Source: Candidatus Thiodiazotropha sp. (ex Myrtea sp. 'scaly one' KF741663) (lineage in GTDB: Bacteria; Pseudomonadota; Gammaproteobacteria; Chromatiales; Chromatiaceae). From it: a stretch of DNA of 64,000 nucleotides. The position numbers were made by a program, and so were the translations under genes. A model generated the notes under the pieces. The model saw only the letters and a program-made list of their open reading frames with translations. It did not search any database and was not told the DNA's origin. The DNA lies in the NCBI GenBank assembly GCA_025655555.1, contig JAHXIQ010000001.1, positions 620,001-684,000 on the forward strand, written 5' to 3'. Positions 2,971 to 43,795 of the stretch are shown here, one piece after another (the stretch's first letter is position 1; each line of letters starts with the position of its first letter).

Positions 2971-4085
2971 TAACGTAGACGATAGTTGAGACTCTCGCCC
3001 TCCAGCTCTACCGGTACCGTGTTATCTTCTGTCACAGTCGGTTCCTGCGCCAACACAGGCTCCAGCACCGCTCCCAACTGAATGCCCCGCTCAAGCACCT
3101 CGCGGCTACCTTGCACCTTGGCCAGAAAACTGACATTTTCCGGGTCGGCCGCAAGCAGGTCCAACTGCTCGATCATGGCCAGTGATTGCAGGTAGTCTTT
3201 GACCAAAACATAGTTAGAGAGCTGGCTGAGTCCATGGATACGTATCCGCAATGTCGTACTCCCTTCACTCACCTGTTGTGGTGCAAAGCGTAGCGCCAAC
3301 GCATCTGCCGCCTGCTGCAATCCCTCATTCAACAATCCATACTTACTGTTGGCGCGTGTCTGCCAGCGATTGACTTTGTCCGGCAGGTAGAGCGTCCACT
3401 GCCCCTGCCAGTCATTTCCACCACGCCCGCGTAGACGCCCCACCAGGATAACATCCGGCAGGTAACGGTTTGAGGCGCGGCGGATATCCGTCTCAAAACC
3501 ACCCCAGAGATCACTAACCGGCAACGCGGCACGATCCTCCATATCCATCAAAGGAAGCAGCACCGGCAACCCCCGATCATTTGCCGCATGCTTGACCATG
3601 CGCTTTAGCTGGGGTTGCCGCTCTAATGAAACCAGGCTGCGACGCGTCCCCGATTCTTCACCCAGCCAAATCAATACAGAAGGCCGTGTCGTACCCCAAA
3701 CCGGTACACCACTCTGGCGTAACAGTCGGTTGACTGCCCGCTCGTCGAAGCGTGCCCAGAGTAAACGATCCGGTTTGTCGGCATCAGATACCCCTGGCTT
3801 ATCATCCAACATACGATAGCGATACTGCTGCACATAGCTCGAAGCCTTACGCAGCAGTCCATCGATCTCAGGATTAGACAACAGACTGCGGTCACCGCTC
3901 ACTTTCACCAAAACCTGCGCAAAGGTATTTTTTATACCCTTGGCCCGGGCTTCGGTACCCTGTCCCACCACGGCTGACTCTGCCTCATAAAGATTGCCAA
4001 CCTGCTCAGCCTGCGCACTCTGCCAAAAAAGCAGGGACGCCAGGAGTAGCCAGCAATAGGGAGGAAAAATTCTTCTATCAATCAT
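2970..4085 (-). CDS. DUF2066 domain protein, exported
   Basis: 371 residues with an N-terminal signal peptide (hydrophobic stretch at 11-25 ending SAQAEQ). The body matches the DUF2066 pattern: an E-A-E-S-x-V motif near 34-39, a conserved K-V-S-G-D segment near 61-65, then a mixed alpha/beta region. Function is unknown; the family is common in gammaproteobacteria directly before a CDP-alcohol phosphatidyltransferase and divergent from purM, exactly as here. It is probably periplasmic or envelope-attached. It is transcribed with the downstream phosphatidyltransferase, which suggests an envelope role (inference). Confidence 0.8.
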   Translation of the reverse strand: MIDRRIFPPYCWLLLASLLFWQSAQAEQVGNLYEAESAVVGQGTEARAKGIKNTFAQVLVKVSGDRSLLSNPEIDGLLRKASSYVQQYRYRMLDDKPGVSDADKPDRLLWARFDERAVNRLLRQSGVPVWGTTRPSVLIWLGEESGTRRSLVSLERQPQLKRMVKHAANDRGLPVLLPLMDMEDRAALPVSDLWGGFETDIRRASNRYLPDVILVGRLRGRGGNDWQGQWTLYLPDKVNRWQTRANSKYGLLNEGLQQAADALALRFAPQQVSEGSTTLRIRIHGLSQLSNYVLVKDYLQSLAMIEQLDLLAADPENVSFLAKVQGSREVLERGIQLGAVLEPVLAQEPTVTEDNTVPVELEGESLNYRLR

Positions 4086-4349
4086 GGCAAGCCGCTTCTA
4101 AGTAAGATCAACGGAGAATCTTAACTCGCCGGCTGACAGGATGAAAATTTTACGCGCAGATTTGACGAATGTTTCTAATCACAATGCCTATACCTGTGAT
4201 TATGAAATAAAAGATTTTTCCCTTTGGGCTGGTTCGGGCCTGTTAACACCCGCTCGATTCTCGCCGCCATTCACACAATTTGCTGCCCGCCGGACCACGC
4301 CACACGGGGATTCTTCTGTTAGAATCGCGTTTCGAATTCATCCCAGCCA
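4086..4349. promoter_or_regulatory. Divergent promoter region between DUF2066 gene and purM
   Basis: 264 bp, AT-rich in its first half. It must hold promoters for both directions. No clear PurR operator was seen. It contains GGGCCTGTTAACAC at 4236-4249, identical to the first 14 bases of the terminal repeats of the 265-bp elements at 39267 and 42668. Confidence 0.4.
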
Positions 4350-5441
4350 ATGCCGGAGTATTTTTCTGTGGAGCAAGAGCCCAAAGACAGCCAGCCAACC
4401 TCTCTCAGTTACCGGGATGCCGGTGTAGACATCGATGCTGGAAATGCTCTGATCGAGCGCATCAAACCGATCGTCAAACAGACCTTCCGGCCGGGTGTAC
4501 TGACCGGGCTAGGTGGTTTCGGCGCGCTATTCGAGCTGCCCCTAGACCGTTATAAAGAGCCGGTACTGGTCTCTGGCACAGACGGCGTCGGTACCAAGCT
4601 CAAGCTGGCCCTGGAACTCAACCGACATGACACCATCGGTATCGATCTGGTTGCCATGTGTGTCAACGATATCGTGGTCGCGGGCGCGGAACCGCTCTTC
4701 TTTCTCGACTACTACGCCACCGGGCGCCTGGATGTGGACGTAGCGGCCGATGTCATCAAGGGCATTGCCAAAGGCTGTGAGCTATCAGGGGCTGCGCTCA
4801 CTGGCGGCGAAACTGCTGAGATGCCAGGCATATATAGCGAAGGCGACTATGATCTGGCCGGATTTTGTGTCGGCATTGCAGAGAAAAGCCGCCTGATTCA
4901 ACCGGATCGCGTACAGAGCGGTGATGTGCTGATCGGCCTCGCCGCTTCCGGCCCCCACTCCAACGGCTACTCCCTGATCCGCAAGATTCTCCAGGTCAAT
5001 GACAGTGATTTGTCACAGCCGTTGGGGAATTCAACCCTGGGTGACGCCCTGCTGGAACCGACCCGCATCTATGTCAAATCCCTGCTGCAACTGATGCAAC
5101 AAGTGGAGATTCATGCCCTCGCCCATATCACCGGCGGCGGTCTACCGGAAAACCTGCCGAGAGTCCTGCCCGAGGGATGCAGAGCGGTGATCGACAGTGA
5201 CAGTTGGCAGCTCCCAGCGGTCTTTGCCTGGTTGCAGTCCCAAGGGGGAGTAACCAACAGCGAGCTGCTGCGCACCTTCAACTGTGGTGTCGGCATGGTG
5301 GTTTGTGTTTCTGAAACCGATGCAGCCCGTACGATTGAGACACTCAATGCCCTGGGTGAAACCGCTTGGCGACTGGGCAGTATCGAAACCGCAACGGAGG
5401 AAAAGACACCTGGCGTGGAAATCCTTGGGCCGCTTGCATGA
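4350..5441 (+). CDS. purM: Phosphoribosylformylglycinamidine cyclo-ligase (AIR synthetase)
   Basis: 363 residues, usual PurM length. Recognisable blocks are [13 protein letters not shown] near the N-terminus, [11 protein letters not shown], the ATP-site region [33 protein letters not shown] and [16 protein letters not shown]. It makes 5-aminoimidazole ribonucleotide from FGAM using ATP, in cytosolic purine synthesis. The stop TGA overlaps the purN start (ATGA at 5438-5441), giving the classical purMN pair. The N-terminal extension of about 20 residues before SYRDAG is slightly long, but no better start is visible. Confidence 0.96.
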
Positions 5442-36545: not shown

Positions 36546-37433
36546 TCAGGTAGTCAGTGCCGCATATATCTTGGCTGCCACATCGGCGTCTGACAGATAG
36601 CCACTGATACCATGTCTGTTAGGTGTAGGGTTGTCGACATCCGTTTTGTTTTCAATAGATGGATCAACATCGAATCGATCATCATCAAGGGGATAAAGTG
36701 CGACTATGTCTCTTTCATCCATGGCATTGAACCACTTGACTGCACAAGCAGGATGGGCAATCGGCCTTACAGTTTTACGGATTGCCTTAACACCGAGGGG
36801 TGAACCAAGGGTAACAAAAAGTGGTATTTCCCATTCTTTCGCCTGCACATCCTTATTCAGAAGATTGTACGCAACTACTGTACCGAGTGAGTGGCTGACC
36901 ACCACAGTCTGGACACCTGGTGTAATGGCTTTGCGCACACCATCATTGATGGTCTTATGAATGACTTGATTTTTCATGTATTGATAAACGTCGCTTGTCG
37001 CCAACGCTATGCTTGCGCCACTTGCCCCCGGCACATATGTATCCACCGCCTTGAGAATACCCTGCAGCCATTCCCATTCCAGCGGCCCACGCTGTACAAC
37101 TTCAGCACCGGCAACCGCCTGGAGTTTCGTCTCGTCGATGTTTTCACGTTCTCGCAGCTCTTCAAACACTGCCTGAAAAAAAGCTTTTTGCGCATCGTCC
37201 TGGGCAGTACCCCTTACAATGATATCTGCCGCATCCCCGTTATCAGCACCATCAACCAGATCAAAAAGCGTCTGTCCGTAATAGGGGAACCGGATGTCGC
37301 TCTCCGTGACAGGCATGGGAAGATTGTTTTTCGCCAGACCCTTTTCAAAGGCATCGATCCATTCCGCTTTCAGCGCGATTGAGTCTTTGTGTTGTTGTGA
37401 TCTGCCATGAATAAAAACCAGTTGCTTGGTCAT
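36546..37433 (-). CDS. Alpha/beta-hydrolase-like serine hydrolase
   Basis: 295 residues. First strand and oxyanion region: QLVFIHGRSQQH (5-15). The nucleophile elbow is VVVSHSLGTVV with S182. Acid and base candidates are D239/D242 and H274 (PNRHGISGYL). No signal peptide, so cytosolic. It could be a lipase, esterase or thioesterase; substrate unknown. The start overlaps the stop of the caspase-like gene (ATGA at 37430-37433), so the two are translationally coupled and likely work together. Confidence 0.82.
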   Translation of the reverse strand: MTKQLVFIHGRSQQHKDSIALKAEWIDAFEKGLAKNNLPMPVTESDIRFPYYGQTLFDLVDGADNGDAADIIVRGTAQDDAQKAFFQAVFEELRERENIDETKLQAVAGAEVVQRGPLEWEWLQGILKAVDTYVPGASGASIALATSDVYQYMKNQVIHKTINDGVRKAITPGVQTVVVSHSLGTVVAYNLLNKDVQAKEWEIPLFVTLGSPLGVKAIRKTVRPIAHPACAVKWFNAMDERDIVALYPLDDDRFDVDPSIENKTDVDNPTPNRHGISGYLSDADVAAKIYAALTT

Positions 37434-39178
37434 AACACCACTCCTTGCTTAAGTGCCTTGTGAATCAGCGCTGCCCCTTCGGGATTAAACATCGTCCAAG
37501 GTGAATTCAGAAGATAGCGCTCCATACCATCGAAGGGCCGGGGAAACCTGACTCTATGGGCAGCCAACTGTGCCCAGCCCTGAGCCAACAGAGGTACAAA
37601 CCCCATGACTGCACGATCACTGCCGATCTTCGTGTCACGCAACTCACCGGCAAGCAGTGCCAGATCGAAGAAACGCGCACCGATATCACCCCGCATATAC
37701 CCACACATTTTTTTTATCAGATCCGTTCTTTGCAGATCCTGATAAGCATAAGCAGCATAGACCGCGAGCGCGGGATCCACACTCTTGGCATACTGCATCT
37801 GACGGGCCAATTTGAGTGCATCCTTCTGATCCAGTCGAAACACCCCATTGAGTGTTGAGGAGGATGCAACGGCACGCAGTGTTCGAACCTCAGCCGCCCG
37901 TTGTTCGAACATGGACCAGCGATGACTATTGGCAGAAGGCTCATAAGCCACATCCACCAGTTCTCCATCATCAATCGTCAAGGCACAGAGAAACTCAGAT
38001 ATGGCCGGCAACACGATAGCCGCACCGGTATCAAGCGTCAGCAGTACGCTGGCATAGGGTCCGTTGTTCACTTGCACACGCAGGTCGTCAATTGGCTGGT
38101 CAGGTTCTTCGACCCAGGCGCCCTTGGAGTAGGCCTTCGTGAACAGCGCCCCACGAATCTTGAATCCACACTGGGTCTCATGATGCATAGGACCAAACGG
38201 TGCTGCGGCACTTGTCAGAGTGGTGGAGAGATCATCACTCCCCCCTGATGCAACATTGCGCAAGCGAACACTATCTACGATTTGATCTGCTGCTTCACCA
38301 TCGAGGGCAGAGTCAAGCAATGCTTGAGAGACCGCTACCGGACTGTCGGGCACCGACACCCGCGCTCTCCCGCTGCGAGTCCTTCGAGGCGGTTTTACGT
38401 CTGCTTTTTTTAGCTTTGCCAGCCAGGTATTACTATCAGAGGTAATACGCGCATCAGGCACCTGTATGATTTTCGTTTGCAGACCAAGCCGTGCAATCTC
38501 TTGCGTCACCTCATCATAGAGATGTTGCTTCAGCTTACGTGGCCGGACAAACCCGGTTGAATCATCCGCCCAGTCAATGACTGTATTCGGCGCCCCCTGA
38601 AGAGAGTCTAACAGCACTCCCGTATACAAGGCCTTGTATTCGTTAGTGGTGATCGCAGGGTTTTTTAGTTCGTGTGCCGGGCGTCCCAGTGTGCAGGCAA
38701 AAAACTGGTCGACAGGTTGCTCCAGTCCGCCCCCACCCTCATTGGGAAAAATCTGTCCACCTGTAACAAATTGCGCCTGAATTCCATCGGCCGCTGTGCG
38801 ACACGCATCCGAGATGAGGATCACATGAGGGATACCACAATAAGCAGCCAGGAGGGCACTACCCCTGACATTGACCGCTTCATCCGGATCATCGGGCGCA
38901 TCACTCAGCAACCAGTATTCACTGTAACGGATATTGACACCGTGGCCGGCAAAGTAGACAAGCAACTGTTCGACATTGCCCTTATTAACAATGTTTTTTA
39001 CAGCGTCCTTGACCTTTCCAATCGTAACCTTGGCACGTTGATCAGTAATGACCTTGACAGGATCTACACCCTGCGTCCGCGCCCATTTTGCAAAGCGCCG
39101 AGCCCCTTTGGCTGCATCATTGAGCTTAGGCAAGCCGCCGGTTTTATCGACTCCTATCACCACAGCTGCTCGTTTCAT
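37430..39178 (-). CDS. Caspase-like cysteine protease (C14 family)
   Basis: 582 residues. The caspase-like domain is N-terminal (about 1-260): VVIGVDKTG, then the catalytic His in VYFAGHGV (H79) and the catalytic Cys in ISDACRTAADG (C126). An about 300-residue C-terminal region follows with no recognised motif; it could be a sensor or an adaptor. No signal peptide. It is coupled to the serine hydrolase gene. A minus-strand promoter is expected in the 39179-39584 gap, where one copy of the 265-bp element sits. Bacterial caspase-like proteases often act in regulated cell death or immunity; whether this one does is inference. Confidence 0.88.
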   Translation of the reverse strand: MKRAAVVIGVDKTGGLPKLNDAAKGARRFAKWARTQGVDPVKVITDQRAKVTIGKVKDAVKNIVNKGNVEQLLVYFAGHGVNIRYSEYWLLSDAPDDPDEAVNVRGSALLAAYCGIPHVILISDACRTAADGIQAQFVTGGQIFPNEGGGGLEQPVDQFFACTLGRPAHELKNPAITTNEYKALYTGVLLDSLQGAPNTVIDWADDSTGFVRPRKLKQHLYDEVTQEIARLGLQTKIIQVPDARITSDSNTWLAKLKKADVKPPRRTRSGRARVSVPDSPVAVSQALLDSALDGEAADQIVDSVRLRNVASGGSDDLSTTLTSAAAPFGPMHHETQCGFKIRGALFTKAYSKGAWVEEPDQPIDDLRVQVNNGPYASVLLTLDTGAAIVLPAISEFLCALTIDDGELVDVAYEPSANSHRWSMFEQRAAEVRTLRAVASSSTLNGVFRLDQKDALKLARQMQYAKSVDPALAVYAAYAYQDLQRTDLIKKMCGYMRGDIGARFFDLALLAGELRDTKIGSDRAVMGFVPLLAQGWAQLAAHRVRFPRPFDGMERYLLNSPWTMFNPEGAALIHKALKQGVVL

Positions 39179-39266
39179 GGTCTGCGTCTCTCCCTTTAAT
39201 CAGATCCCACTAACCGTTTATGCGCTAGACTAACCTTATTGATCCAGATATTTACCCGGCAACCTA

Positions 39267-39531
39267 GGGCCTGTTAACACTAATCCAATACGCCCTGCTG
39301 GAGCTGTTTTTGTACCCAGCAAGGCAGAATGAGCGTGGTGTAGCCCGGCTACATGAGCGAATGATAACGCCGCTGGGTGCAAAAACAGCCCCAGCCCTTC
39401 GGGTTGAGCCTGAAAAAGCACCACTCTGTGTTGCTCGTCGCTCATTTGGAATAACCAAACTTCTCTCCTCGCGCCTTGATTGGCGCTTTTTCAGGCTCAA
39501 CAGGGCGCATTGGATTAGTGTTAACAGGCCC
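39267..39531. mobile_element. MITE-like element, copy A (265 bp)
   Basis: Both ends carry about 30-bp terminal inverted repeats beginning GGGCCTGTTAACAC. The interior has further palindromes (GTAGCCCGGCTAC). It lies between the divergent caspase-like and CHAT genes. The left flank is TA, the right GA, so a TA target duplication is only half visible. No transposase inside. Near-identical to copy B but in opposite orientation. Confidence 0.85.
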
Positions 39532-39584
39532 GAATATGCAGTTTTGATAATAAGAACATATAGCATCAGGCAAGGAGGATTGCC

Positions 39585-42500
39585 ATGACAAGCATGTCAG
39601 ACGAAGAGGTCGTTCAGGCTCTCTACGCACCAGCCCTGAACATCCTTCAAGGCGTGATCAGCTACGAGAATGCTGTTGAGCAGATGGACATGCAACAGAT
39701 CGCAGCTTCACTTAGCGATGGATTAGTGATTCAGATCTCCCGTGAAGCTTTTAACCTCATCAAACAACCAGAGCCGAAATGGCAACCCGCCATCGCTTTA
39801 CAGATATTGCTCTATGCCTGTCTCGATGCGCGTAGCGAACCACCTCCACACTCAGTGCTCGAAGAGCTGGCGTGGAACTTCGTCAGTGCAACTTCAAGGG
39901 CACTCTGGTTTGTGCCGGACCCCTGGCTCTACAAACAGGCGACCGAGAAAGGAGCTGCAGCAGTCGAGCTGGCTAAAAAACATGACAACTTGCCGGGCGC
40001 AGGCGATCTGCTTCACGCACTTGGCACCTTGAATCTGGATCCCTACGGCGCCAATCGCGCAGTCGCAATGTTCGATCAGGAAATGCAAACCTGGCGGGGC
40101 CGTGCCAGCAATGGAGAAACCTGGAACCATATCCACTACTACGACCTGGAGGCGGATGGCTATCCGAGCATTCAGCAGGCCTACGATGCCGCAGCAAAAT
40201 ACTATCGGGAAGCCGCTTCGCTTAGAGAGGGACGCGCACGCGCACTGTCACTGAAAGCACTGGCGCAAACACTTTACAATAGCCACGAACAAAAACTGCC
40301 CTACGATAAAGCGGAAATCGAACAAGCAGCCAGAGAGGCGCTCGAGTACTTTGATGAGAAGGAAGACCCTGCCGTTTATTTCGAGACGCTCAGCTACCTG
40401 AAGTTTGCAGCGGGTAGTGATAGTGATATTTCAGGCGGGTTTCCCAAAGATTGGCTGGAGGGTTCCATTGATCGTTCAGTCAAACGCCTGGGTGAGGAAA
40501 AAACAGTTCAACTCGTCAGCCAAGCCTATGCCAATATCGATGATTACCCGCAATTATTGCGTATTTTACTCGATGCGGCATCTCTGTTTAAACATAGTAT
40601 CAGAGATGATTTTTATCACCTGGCTGTCATAAGAACATTCATTCGTTCGGTTGGAGCGGCGACCTTTGACCTTAACAATCCCCCAAAGGAATCCATTGAG
40701 GATTTATTTAACATCGCCACGGCGTCAGCTAACAAGGAAGACTGGGACCCTGCCCGCTATGCCGCCGCACTTCTCGCACTTGCAGACGTATCTGTCGCCA
40801 CGAACGAAGAAGCCATTGCTATCCAGATCGTGGATATGGCAACCAAGACCGCACCCTACGCCTTGGAAAAAATCCATAACTCCATCGCTCATCTGCGCGC
40901 ACAGTTACTACGAAATGATGGCGTGAATGCCTATAGGCGAGATGACTGGAACGAAAGCACGAGCCGCTATGCTGAAGCGCTGTCTTCATTTCTTGATTTA
41001 GGTGAGGCACGACACATCAGTAAATCACTGACCGAACTTAGTGACGTGGTTAAACTCGGCGATGATGAAGCAGCCGTCTCAGTCTGTGCAATTCTGGAGG
41101 ATAAGATAGATTCAATCGAGGTACTTGCCGGCGATCAAGTCACTGAGCAGATACGCACGTTAATTGAATACGCCGTTCGTAATCAGCTAGATCACAATGC
41201 CAACACCCATGTCCTTTGGCGGCTCATGCAGCTTTCCAGTGCACGGCGATTTGCTGCCATGTTGGCGGCGGGGAGCGCTCACCAACTACGTTCAGAGTTT
41301 ATCGCACCGCATATGCTTGAACAGATCGATGAACTACGCAGACAGGTTTTCCTTGAAGGGTACGTAGTGACTGCCAGCGACCGGCTGACAGACTCTGTAT
41401 TACTCAGCCCTTATGCCGCGGATGGAATAAGAATGAGCGGGAACGTGGCCGCTGAACAACTGGCAAACCTGGAGCACCAATATGACAGAGTGCTCAACCA
41501 CGCTATGGCTCAGACGGCGATGGGGAAAGTGGGACTACTGGCGGCGGAATCCGATGTGCAAGCTTATCTTGGCCCTACAGATGTCATTGTTCAGCTTTTC
41601 ACAGTCGATGCATCAAGAGACGGGATGGCACCGGCAATACTCTTATCTGCTGTCACCACTCGTGAGGACTCAACATGGATGGCCGTCAAATTCGGCAACC
41701 AACCTCGCATGAAAATGGAGATTGACGGCGTTGCAGTCGAAATGACCGAACTCAGTGCCATGGTTGAGTCGTTACGTACACATATCCAGGAAGACCCCGA
41801 AGATGAACCACTCAACGAGGATGCAATTTCGTCAATCGAGTCGATCACGGGTTTACTGACAAATCCGATACAGCAGCGCCTAAACGAACTACATCAGGCG
41901 GGAAAACGCCACTTGTGCTTTGTCCCGCCAGGACCACTGGCCTATACACCCTTCCATGTTCTTGGCGAGGTCCCGGGTGCTCTGCAGTCATCCTGGACCA
42001 TCACCTATCTCCCGACACTACAGCTACTGGTGCGCAACTACGGCGGTCCGGCACTACTGCGCAGACGTGATACAAACGTCAGTGCATGCGGAATCTCTTT
42101 TAAAGACAATACCGATGGTTACGACGAATTACCTGAAACCATTTCGGAAGCACGTGCAGTAGCAAAGACCATGGGTGGGAAACTTCTACTGGAGGAGGAT
42201 GCCACTGAGCGCAATCTGAAACATGCGATGCTGACTTCAGAATATGTGCATATTTGTACCCACGGGTACCAGAACGTGGTTGCACCCTGCTTTCATAAAC
42301 TGGTCCTGTCACCTGATGATGAGGATGACGGCAATCTGCATGCACATGAACTGCTCGGCATGGATCTCAGAGGCTTGAATCTCGTCACACTCAGTGCCTG
42401 CGAAACCGCTCTCGGGAGATTTGATCGTGGCATGAATCCGCACGGCCTGCCCGCCACACTGCTGTCAGCCGGCACAGAAACCGTCATCGGTACCCTGTGG

Positions 42501-42668
42501 GAGATTGAATCAACTTGCTCCGAACGGTTCTTCACTACACTCTACACATTACTTGGCAAGGGGCAGAGCAAATTGGCTGCTTACAACGAGGCACTGCAAG
42601 TCACACGGGAGCATCACCCGGAATTTAGAGATTGGGGCGCGTTCTACTTTCTGGGAGATTGGAACTAG
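39585..42668 (+). CDS. CHAT-domain protease with a long helical N-terminal region
   Basis: 1027 residues. The N-terminal about 550 residues are helical and repeat-like, consistent with TPR-type repeats though no clean consensus was drawn. The C-terminal CHAT protease domain (about 680-1027) has the catalytic His in YVHICTHGY (H893) and Cys in TLSACETALG (C939), 46 residues apart. CHAT proteases are caspase relatives, often in defence or programmed cell death systems. A strong ribosome-binding site (AAGGAGGA) precedes the ATG. The stop codon TAG is formed by the TA target site plus the first G of MITE copy B. The gene is bracketed by inverted MITE copies. Confidence 0.9.
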   Translation: MTSMSDEEVVQALYAPALNILQGVISYENAVEQMDMQQIAASLSDGLVIQISREAFNLIKQPEPKWQPAIALQILLYACLDARSEPPPHSVLEELAWNFVSATSRALWFVPDPWLYKQATEKGAAAVELAKKHDNLPGAGDLLHALGTLNLDPYGANRAVAMFDQEMQTWRGRASNGETWNHIHYYDLEADGYPSIQQAYDAAAKYYREAASLREGRARALSLKALAQTLYNSHEQKLPYDKAEIEQAAREALEYFDEKEDPAVYFETLSYLKFAAGSDSDISGGFPKDWLEGSIDRSVKRLGEEKTVQLVSQAYANIDDYPQLLRILLDAASLFKHSIRDDFYHLAVIRTFIRSVGAATFDLNNPPKESIEDLFNIATASANKEDWDPARYAAALLALADVSVATNEEAIAIQIVDMATKTAPYALEKIHNSIAHLRAQLLRNDGVNAYRRDDWNESTSRYAEALSSFLDLGEARHISKSLTELSDVVKLGDDEAAVSVCAILEDKIDSIEVLAGDQVTEQIRTLIEYAVRNQLDHNANTHVLWRLMQLSSARRFAAMLAAGSAHQLRSEFIAPHMLEQIDELRRQVFLEGYVVTASDRLTDSVLLSPYAADGIRMSGNVAAEQLANLEHQYDRVLNHAMAQTAMGKVGLLAAESDVQAYLGPTDVIVQLFTVDASRDGMAPAILLSAVTTREDSTWMAVKFGNQPRMKMEIDGVAVEMTELSAMVESLRTHIQEDPEDEPLNEDAISSIESITGLLTNPIQQRLNELHQAGKRHLCFVPPGPLAYTPFHVLGEVPGALQSSWTITYLPTLQLLVRNYGGPALLRRRDTNVSACGISFKDNTDGYDELPETISEARAVAKTMGGKLLLEEDATERNLKHAMLTSEYVHICTHGYQNVVAPCFHKLVLSPDDEDDGNLHAHELLGMDLRGLNLVTLSACETALGRFDRGMNPHGLPATLLSAGTETVIGTLWEIESTCSERFFTTLYTLLGKGQSKLAAYNEALQVTREHHPEFRDWGAFYFLGDWN

Positions 42669-42976: not shown

Positions 42977-43795
42977 TTACACCAGGCAACGCCGAATGAT
43001 GTACCCGCCCGAGCGCTCATCCCGCTCCAATTCAAGTATGCCGTTGGTCTCCGCCTCTTCAAGCAGATCGCTAAATGAACGGAAGCCGTAATAGGATTCA
43101 CTGAAACCCGGCTTACGGCGTTTCAGGGTCTGCTTGATCATCGAACCCCAGATCTTTTCTCCCTCTCCCCGCTCTTCCATTAAAGCCTCATAGGTGGCAA
43201 CAATCAGATTCCAGGCATCCTGTTTTTTTGACTCTGCCGGTTTCTCGCTACCTTTCTTTGTGGATGTCTTAGCAGACTTTTTGCTACTTTTCGCGGTTCG
43301 CTTTCTTTGTGGCTTTTGTCGTTGAACAAGGTCGTCGTAATAGATGAATTCGTCACAATTGGCAATCAGGAGATCTGACGTTGAGTTCTTTACCCCAAGC
43401 CCGATAACCGTCTTGTTGTTTTCCCGCAATTTACTCACCAGGGGTGAAAAATCAGAATCACCACTGATCACGACAAAAGTATCGACATGCTCTTTCGTGT
43501 AGCAGAGATCAAGGGCATCGACGACCAAACGGATATCTGCTGAGTTTTTTCCGGATTGCCTCACATGTGGAATCTCGATCAGCTCGAAAGAGGCCTCGTG
43601 CATTGCCGGCCTGAATTCTTTGTATCTGGACCAATCGGCATAGGCCTTCTTGACGACGATATTGCCTTTGAGCAGAAGCTTTTCCAGCACTTTTAAAATA
43701 TCAAACTGTGCATAATCCGCATCTCTCACACCCAGCGCCACATTCTCAAAATCGCAGAACAGTGCCATGATTTTAGTGTCCGAGGATTGTGTCAT
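42977..43795 (-). CDS. NYN-domain (LabA/DUF88-like) putative ribonuclease with a C-terminal OST-HTH-like domain
   Basis: 272 residues. The N-terminal NYN/PIN-like domain (about 8-160) has the acidic residues of the family: FCDFENVALG, SADIRLVVDALDL and VISGDSDFSPLVSKLRE. A Lys/Ser-rich linker (about 165-200) leads to a C-terminal domain resembling OST-HTH/LOTUS (about 205-272, GSMIKQTLKRRKPGFSES). It likely cleaves or binds RNA. It is common in gammaproteobacteria; its place next to the protease block may be accidental. Confidence 0.88.
   Translation of the reverse strand: MTQSSDTKIMALFCDFENVALGVRDADYAQFDILKVLEKLLLKGNIVVKKAYADWSRYKEFRPAMHEASFELIEIPHVRQSGKNSADIRLVVDALDLCYTKEHVDTFVVISGDSDFSPLVSKLRENNKTVIGLGVKNSTSDLLIANCDEFIYYDDLVQRQKPQRKRTAKSSKKSAKTSTKKGSEKPAESKKQDAWNLIVATYEALMEERGEGEKIWGSMIKQTLKRRKPGFSESYYGFRSFSDLLEEAETNGILELERDERSGGYIIRRCLV

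Follow-up and report, generated by a model that had tools for sequence, protein, structure and literature searches.

The unlocking of effectors by proteolysis is a newly recognised principle in bacterial immunity: in the canu system, a pro-nuclease is activated by the caspase encoded upstream of it, and the available text of that study expects further classes of proteolytically activated enzyme (PMC12799240). The pairing of a caspase with a hydrolase is, as such, already known, since the available sections on the VMAP ternary conflict systems (Kaur and others) describe a caspase domain that always occurs with a neighbouring alpha/beta-hydrolase gene (PMC7159879). The locus considered here lies within a stretch of 64,000 nucleotides (the window; positions 620,001 to 684,000 of contig JAHXIQ010000001.1) from Candidatus Thiodiazotropha sp. 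(ex Myrtea sp. 'scaly one' KF741663), and consists of the genes for a serine hydrolase (HYD), a caspase-like protease (CASP), and, divergent from this pair, a CHAT protease (CHAT). Candidatus Thiodiazotropha is a sulfur-oxidising symbiont of clams. What is new about the locus is best described as a caspase-hydrolase pair that stands alone and has CHAT as a recurrent partner. The sequence-only reading of the window had described the three genes as an effector set seen in pieces elsewhere, for which the available text of both studies does provide precedent in print (PMC7159879, PMC12799240).

The likeness to canu lies in the gene order, with the caspase encoded upstream of an enzyme, and in the comparison of both caspases with MALT1; some canu loci also carry TPR domains and extra genes (PMC12799240, available text). 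In contrast, the canu enzyme is a nuclease of the metallo-beta-lactamase (MBL) fold, whereas HYD is an alpha/beta-hydrolase with no MBL match in Pfam. CHAT is not named in the main text of the canu paper, as far as available (PMC12799240), and is not mentioned in the available text of the VMAP paper (PMC7159879). In the latter systems, the caspase belongs to VMAP proteins accompanied by MoxR and vWA genes, whereas no MoxR, vWA, or VMAP gene was found among the eight window proteins scanned with Pfam. VMAP-C does occur somewhere in 4 of 12 HYD-holding genomes, and one of five VMAP stretches examined (L189) contains an open reading frame (ORF) with a weak local match to HYD (9.2e-07). Craspase TPR-CHAT (Csx29) is likewise a CHAT protease whose N-terminal region is long; however, the window CHAT matches the corresponding NCBIfam model NF041237 only weakly (34.5 bits, with a cut-off of 300), and no Cas protein was found among the window neighbours scanned with Pfam. 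The EACC1-caspase systems share the two-gene logic, and CASP weakly matches NF047832, but at 27.7 bits it falls below the cut-off of 140, and its partner HYD has no NCBIfam match. A stand-alone CASP-HYD pair with CHAT was not recognised in searches of the open-licence literature without preprints, including the available text of PMC8195603, PMC10907252, PMC7159879, and PMC12799240, and the available text of PMC11171427, which deals with defence genes of Thiodiazotropha, mentions neither caspase nor CHAT.

All three genes of the window are intact and carry the catalytic residues that the sequence-only reading had assigned to them (H79/C126 in CASP, S182 in HYD, and H893/C939 in the 1027-residue CHAT), and the 4-bp overlap that it had reported between CASP and HYD is present as ATGA, through which translational coupling of the two genes is likely. 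CASP belongs to the caspase superfamily (C14), with a Pfam match to Peptidase_C14 above the cut-off (3.5e-07), a His/Cys dyad, and the p20 fold; all 67 aligned sequences, the window's own included, keep H79, D124, and C126. In HYD, S182, D242, and H274 are invariant in 79 of 79 (again including the window's own), the catalytic aspartate being assigned by conservation. HYD has no Pfam family above the cut-off, with LCAT and PGAP1 below threshold only; the invariant Ser-Asp-His, together with the strands and helices of a confident model, nonetheless mark it as an alpha/beta-hydrolase. CHAT, with H893 and C939, matches PF12770 at 1.3e-44 (153.3 bits against a cut-off of 24), and its long N-terminal region has no Pfam match above the cut-off. 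Matches in PADLOC are weak, with CASP hitting 'caspase' (5.5e-06) and CHAT hitting BovA (4.1e-06).

Conservation of the pair was assessed by scanning genome contigs with a seven-row HYD alignment, from which 80 loci of at least 499 relatives were kept. With the window and the duplicates L026 and L067 left out, 78 scan loci and 11 plasmid or genus loci make up 89 distinct loci, which span six phyla (tree labels). CASP adjoins HYD in 78 of these 89 (69 of 78 scan loci and 9 of 11 others). Among the 11 HYD loci without CASP, L041, L049, and L060 are cut less than 1 kb upstream of HYD. In four of the 11 (L021, L047, L052, and L060), HYD is immediately followed by a CHAT-like gene, and in the first three no CASP was found in the approximately 8–9 kb upstream, as if one clan CD protease could replace another. 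On a Streptomyces plasmid (L024), the HYD relative has no CASP beside it and overlaps a NACHT-WD40 gene; type I-E CRISPR genes lie downstream (L024:8992-14258). No partner was recognised for HYD in L056 and L101–L103, which likewise lack CASP.

With starts chosen by script, 76 pairs were measurable, and CASP and HYD overlap by 4 bases in 31, by one base in 10, and by some other length in 4; a further 2 (L035 and L059) are fused as a single ORF, 12 lie within 50 bp, and 17 are further apart. In L035, a second caspase-like ORF (3309-4388) stands upstream of the fused gene. Twin-arginine (Tat)-like leaders, called by a stricter motif rule because hydrophobicity alone or motif alone was too noisy, are present on both genes in 18 of the 76 pairs, on neither in 56, and on CASP only in 2, so that 74 pairs are concordant. 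On the HYD tree, leader state requires about one gain and one loss, each involving both genes, and a Fisher probability for the concordance is thus not valid. The same tree mixes phyla, and some pairs are carried on plasmids. These comparisons identify CASP-HYD as a conserved, coupled, and horizontally moving two-gene unit whose leaders are kept alike and whose catalytic residues are intact. When 398 genomes of the phylum were sampled independently, HYD relatives (E 1e-20) were found in 10 other genomes; the 4 full-length matches all stand beside CASP, two being loci already in the set, and in one of the 4 (L193, genome G477) both genes are broken by stop codons.

CHAT is an optional partner of this unit. 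An iterated profile found it in 12 of 78 scan loci (L037, L044, L045, L047, L052, L053, L059, L060, L061, L064, L093, and L105) and in the plasmid locus L021. In 11 of the 12 it lies at most 140 bp from the unit, often touching or overlapping it, and in L037 it is 3.9 kb away. Pfam confirmed CHAT in all nine loci submitted; PF12770 matches fall at the corresponding contig positions in L052 and L093, and the L021 gene is annotated as CHAT. CASP is also present in 8 of the 11 close loci, and in four of these, from Amycolatopsis (L044), Janibacter (L059), Knoellia (L064), and Embleya (L105), CHAT is divergent from CASP as in the window. Homologues of all three genes do therefore co-occur, in 8 of 78 scan loci, as the sequence-only reading had suggested looking for. 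For 44 of the 78 scan loci, the genomes together contain 74 CHAT matches in 245.7 Mb, in-locus matches included, so that 0.22 CHAT genes would be expected in 44 loci of 16.9 kb, compared with 11 seen (Poisson 1e-15; about 50 times chance). These 44 loci were chosen after the CHAT positions were known and include 11 of the 12 CHAT-bearing ones; the fair denominator is 78 loci, which by estimate approximately doubles the expectation and leaves the result unchanged.

The trees indicate that CHAT beside CASP-HYD is a matter of repeated recruitment and not of one inherited block. Mapped on the HYD tree, its presence (14 rows, with L037 left out) must change 10 times; on a tree of CHAT domains, the divergent arrangement must change 5 times, with well-supported branches imposing at least 3 of these changes. 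The Janibacter and Knoellia CHATs are nearest to that of the window, although this fork (92/86) is not among the well-supported (starred) ones. Single common descent of the divergent CHATs is unsupported, as they interleave with background CHATs, a background taken from the window's relatives. An obligate three-gene operon is rejected, because most CASP-HYD pairs lack CHAT; conversely, CHAT domains occur in genomes where full-length CASP was not found. The earlier idea of one module thus survives in part: CASP-HYD is constant and CHAT is enriched beside it, but the three do not form an obligate set. Given the many pairs without CHAT and the separate history of the pair, the arrangement is best described as a two-gene core that is constant and a CHAT partner that is optional.

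This separate history is visible among Thiodiazotropha genomes. In the window, the three genes are flanked by sodB on one side and by a gene with an NYN domain on the other. The sister-species genome G018 has an identical gene order, with a syntenic CHAT that is 96% identical. Synonymous divergence (dS) from G018 is 1.18 for CASP and 2.42 (saturated) for HYD, compared with 0.21 for CHAT and 0.15–0.26 for eight flanking genes, which is most simply explained by an exchange of CASP-HYD as a single block in the interval from sodB to CHAT, with CHAT itself remaining in its context. Omega values against the sister species (the ratio of nonsynonymous to synonymous divergence) are low for HYD (0.035), CASP (0.107), and CHAT (0.091), indicating purifying selection. 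Another Thiodiazotropha genome, G013, is syntenic on both sides (hyuB and sodB; NYN, narX, narL, and nap), and none of the three genes was found between its sodB and NYN genes; the gap of approximately 1.9 kb holds an ORF of 449 residues with no match to HYD, CASP, or CHAT. G013 has a CASP-HYD pair with Tat-like leaders elsewhere and no CHAT match in its genome. Across the three comparable genomes, this site holds either all of HYD, CASP, and CHAT or none of them. Full-length CASP occurs in 3 of 22 genomes of the genus, each time with HYD; for full-length CHAT the count is 2 of 190 genomes, that of the window among them.

AlphaFold2 models of HYD and CASP are confident, with a predicted local distance difference test score (pLDDT) of 91.5 and 91.0, respectively. 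In Foldseek, the CASP model best matches structures of MALT1 (9.2e-10), followed by metacaspases and caspases. A profile search matched metacaspase-4 at 1.4e-08 and MALT1 only at 0.021; the former match points to the same kind of protease as the Foldseek result. MALT1 is the closest solved fold, and some alignments span its caspase and Ig domains; in the CASP model, a beta-rich segment (~338-414) follows the caspase domain. However, identity is 11%–18% in the MALT1 rows, CASP continues into further C-terminal helices, and the root-mean-square deviation of approximately 23 Å when both MALT1 domains are aligned indicates that the domains are placed differently in CASP. The HYD profile matched 15 sequences in the PDB, all weakly (best 0.019), of which 8 are named lipase, phospholipase, esterase, or serine hydrolase. 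The least confident part of the HYD model is residues 61–80 (pLDDT block means of 55 and 65), and within it position 74 is Arg or Lys in 71 of 79 sequences and position 75 is Gly in 73 of 79. Paracaspases and metacaspases cleave after basic residues. Arg/Lys-Gly is present in 64 of 69 HYD proteins with CASP and in 4 of 8 without detected CASP, a weak association.

From these features we infer, tentatively and with somewhat less than even confidence, how the genes would be activated, on what substrate, in what order, and to what purpose: as a protease-effector pair in which CHAT senses, CASP releases HYD, and HYD damages lipid, thereby stopping growth or killing the cell. HYD would be a lipase- or esterase-type effector that is kept inactive. 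CASP would be an arginine-preferring, paracaspase-like endopeptidase that cleaves or otherwise releases it, possibly at the Arg/Lys-Gly of the flexible loop. Where present, CHAT would use its long N-terminal region to sense a trigger and would act upstream of CASP as the initiator protease. Freed HYD would then damage membrane lipid or another ester pool, leading to growth arrest or cell death, the outcome being abortive infection or a different form of self-restriction; for the branch exported through Tat, this action would take place outside the cytoplasm. A paracaspase-lipase death switch, in which a CHAT initiator and a MALT1-like executor unlock a lipase, mostly by a cut after the conserved Arg/Lys, and which one branch has moved whole outside the cytoplasm, is an unlikely proposition as it stands; by analogy, such a switch would be the lipase counterpart of canu and gasdermin.

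Several observations weigh against the proposed protease-effector pair. CHAT is absent from most CASP-HYD loci and was not found in the 10 HYD stretches of the 398-genome sample (one stretch being only 5 kb). The CHAT of L060 is doubtful because the protein scores equally with the caspase and CHAT profiles, and the CHAT cysteine did not align in L047 and L052. Arg/Lys-Gly is missing from 5 of 69 HYD proteins with CASP, including L059, L064, and L105 and thus 3 of the 4 other divergent-CHAT loci; 4 of the 8 HYD proteins without detected CASP, one from a locus cut upstream, retain it, and two further basic columns of HYD are equally conserved. The Tat-like leaders on a quarter of the pairs are ill-suited to a purely intracellular phage sensor, and since about one event accounts for the Tat pairs, leader concordance does not amount to many independent cases. 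Moreover, the scanned neighbours give no defence island.

Two other explanations bear on the same evidence. CASP-HYD may be the entire system, with CHAT an independent conflict gene that lands there through shared insertion sites; this is a doubtful but real possibility, for most pairs do lack CHAT, pair and CHAT differ in their divergence from the sister species, and other conflict-type proteins adjoin the pair (a trypsin and NucA-type endonuclease protein in Cellulomonas, a caspase-helicase in Hymenobacter, and NACHT-WD40 beside HYD). It accounts less readily for the recurrence of CHAT by the unit in different families, often in contact with it, for CHAT next to HYD where CASP was not found, and for the joint absence of all three genes from the G013 site. 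Alternatively, the unit could serve cell physiology instead of conflict, its protease maturing a (phospho)lipase used in envelope turnover or under stress. Tat-like leaders across a whole CASP-HYD clade, purifying selection, and window neighbours of housekeeping or regulatory appearance would agree with such a role, which we nevertheless consider unlikely given the patchiness of the unit (CASP in few genomes of the genus; strong HYD matches in 4 of 397 other genomes), its carriage on plasmids, the mixing of phyla in the HYD tree, and the recruitment of a second protease.

The position of CHAT raises a third explanation. CHAT is bracketed by two inverted copies of a 267-bp palindromic repeat resembling a miniature inverted-repeat transposable element (MITE), a feature absent from the sequence-only reading. 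The repeat recurs across the genome in 103 matching pieces, many near full length, and probably has a TA target, with TA on both sides of the right copy and TA and GA at the left. The close flanking of CHAT by these copies would fit a mobile cassette brought into the site between two MITEs; however, both copies are absent from the orthologous site in G018 (L014), where CHAT is in the same place, and the copies therefore inserted later, the left one now splitting the CASP/CHAT divergent intergenic region. A MITE-borne origin of CHAT is thereby refuted and hardly credible as an account of the locus. Phage origin was also rejected, with no relative in viral_contigs, no PHROGs match, and a partial match (53% of HYD) in 2 phage records. 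The coordinates of all features are collected in Table 1.

Table 1. Features of the CASP-HYD-CHAT locus in the window.
Feature	Coordinates	Strand	Basis
HYD, alpha/beta serine hydrolase, 295 residues, S182 (SHSLG)/D242/H274	36546..37433	-	ORF, conservation, AlphaFold2
HYD residues 61-80 with Arg74-Gly75, candidate cleavage or gating loop	37194..37253	-	lowest-pLDDT stretch
CASP, caspase-like (paracaspase/metacaspase-like) protease, 582 residues, H79 (AGHG)/C126 (SDACR)	37430..39178	-	Peptidase_C14, fold
ATGA, 4-base overlap between the stop of CASP and the start of HYD	37430..37433	-	sequence
MITE-like palindromic repeat, left copy, within divergent intergenic region	39265..39531		repeat comparison
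CHAT protease, 1027 residues, H893/C939, CHAT domain ~753-1025	39585..42668	+	PF12770
MITE-like repeat, right copy, inverted, 98%, begins at CHAT stop codon	42668..42934		repeat comparison

By Pfam, the five window neighbours scanned appear to have housekeeping or regulatory roles; the NYN protein alone was also compared with PADLOC, where it matches the NYN nuclease model (4.4e-07). Encoded beside CHAT (42977-43795), it combines NYN with OST-HTH/LOTUS and is syntenic in G013 without the three genes. Around the pair loci, 199 flanking ORFs were listed, with PADLOC applied to 9 chosen proteins and Pfam to chosen ones, and the first 60 of 76 neighbour clusters were examined. The largest cluster (65 loci) was taken as ORFs overlapping CASP, and several others as synteny within one genus. 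In Cellulomonas, a trypsin and NucA-type endonuclease protein is encoded divergently from CASP-HYD (L054:3402-6308 and L073:3885-6428). On a Hymenobacter plasmid, a fusion of caspase and DEAD helicase that is HamB-like in PADLOC lies upstream of the pair (L020:1999-5052), and the 533-residue protein next to this fusion recurs in four loci (L020, L082, L086, and L094). Weak ZorA/ZorB-like genes are found near the HYD-CHAT pair of a Sinorhizobium plasmid (L021:4021-6518). In L019 (2872-6203), an S8 peptidase gene overlapped by one for an MBL-fold hydrolase stands near the pair, possibly as another protease-effector pair.

The unit may be a cell-suicide or defence switch, and an anti-phage role may be supposed for it. 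At approximately 6 kb, the whole three-gene set is compact and amenable to testing in laboratory strains. If the proposed protease-effector pair is true, its combination of a caspase and a lipase-type enzyme would carry the principle of the unlocked effector over to lipid hydrolysis, and the second clan CD protease would make a bacterial initiator/executor pair, comparable with those of animal and plant cell death.

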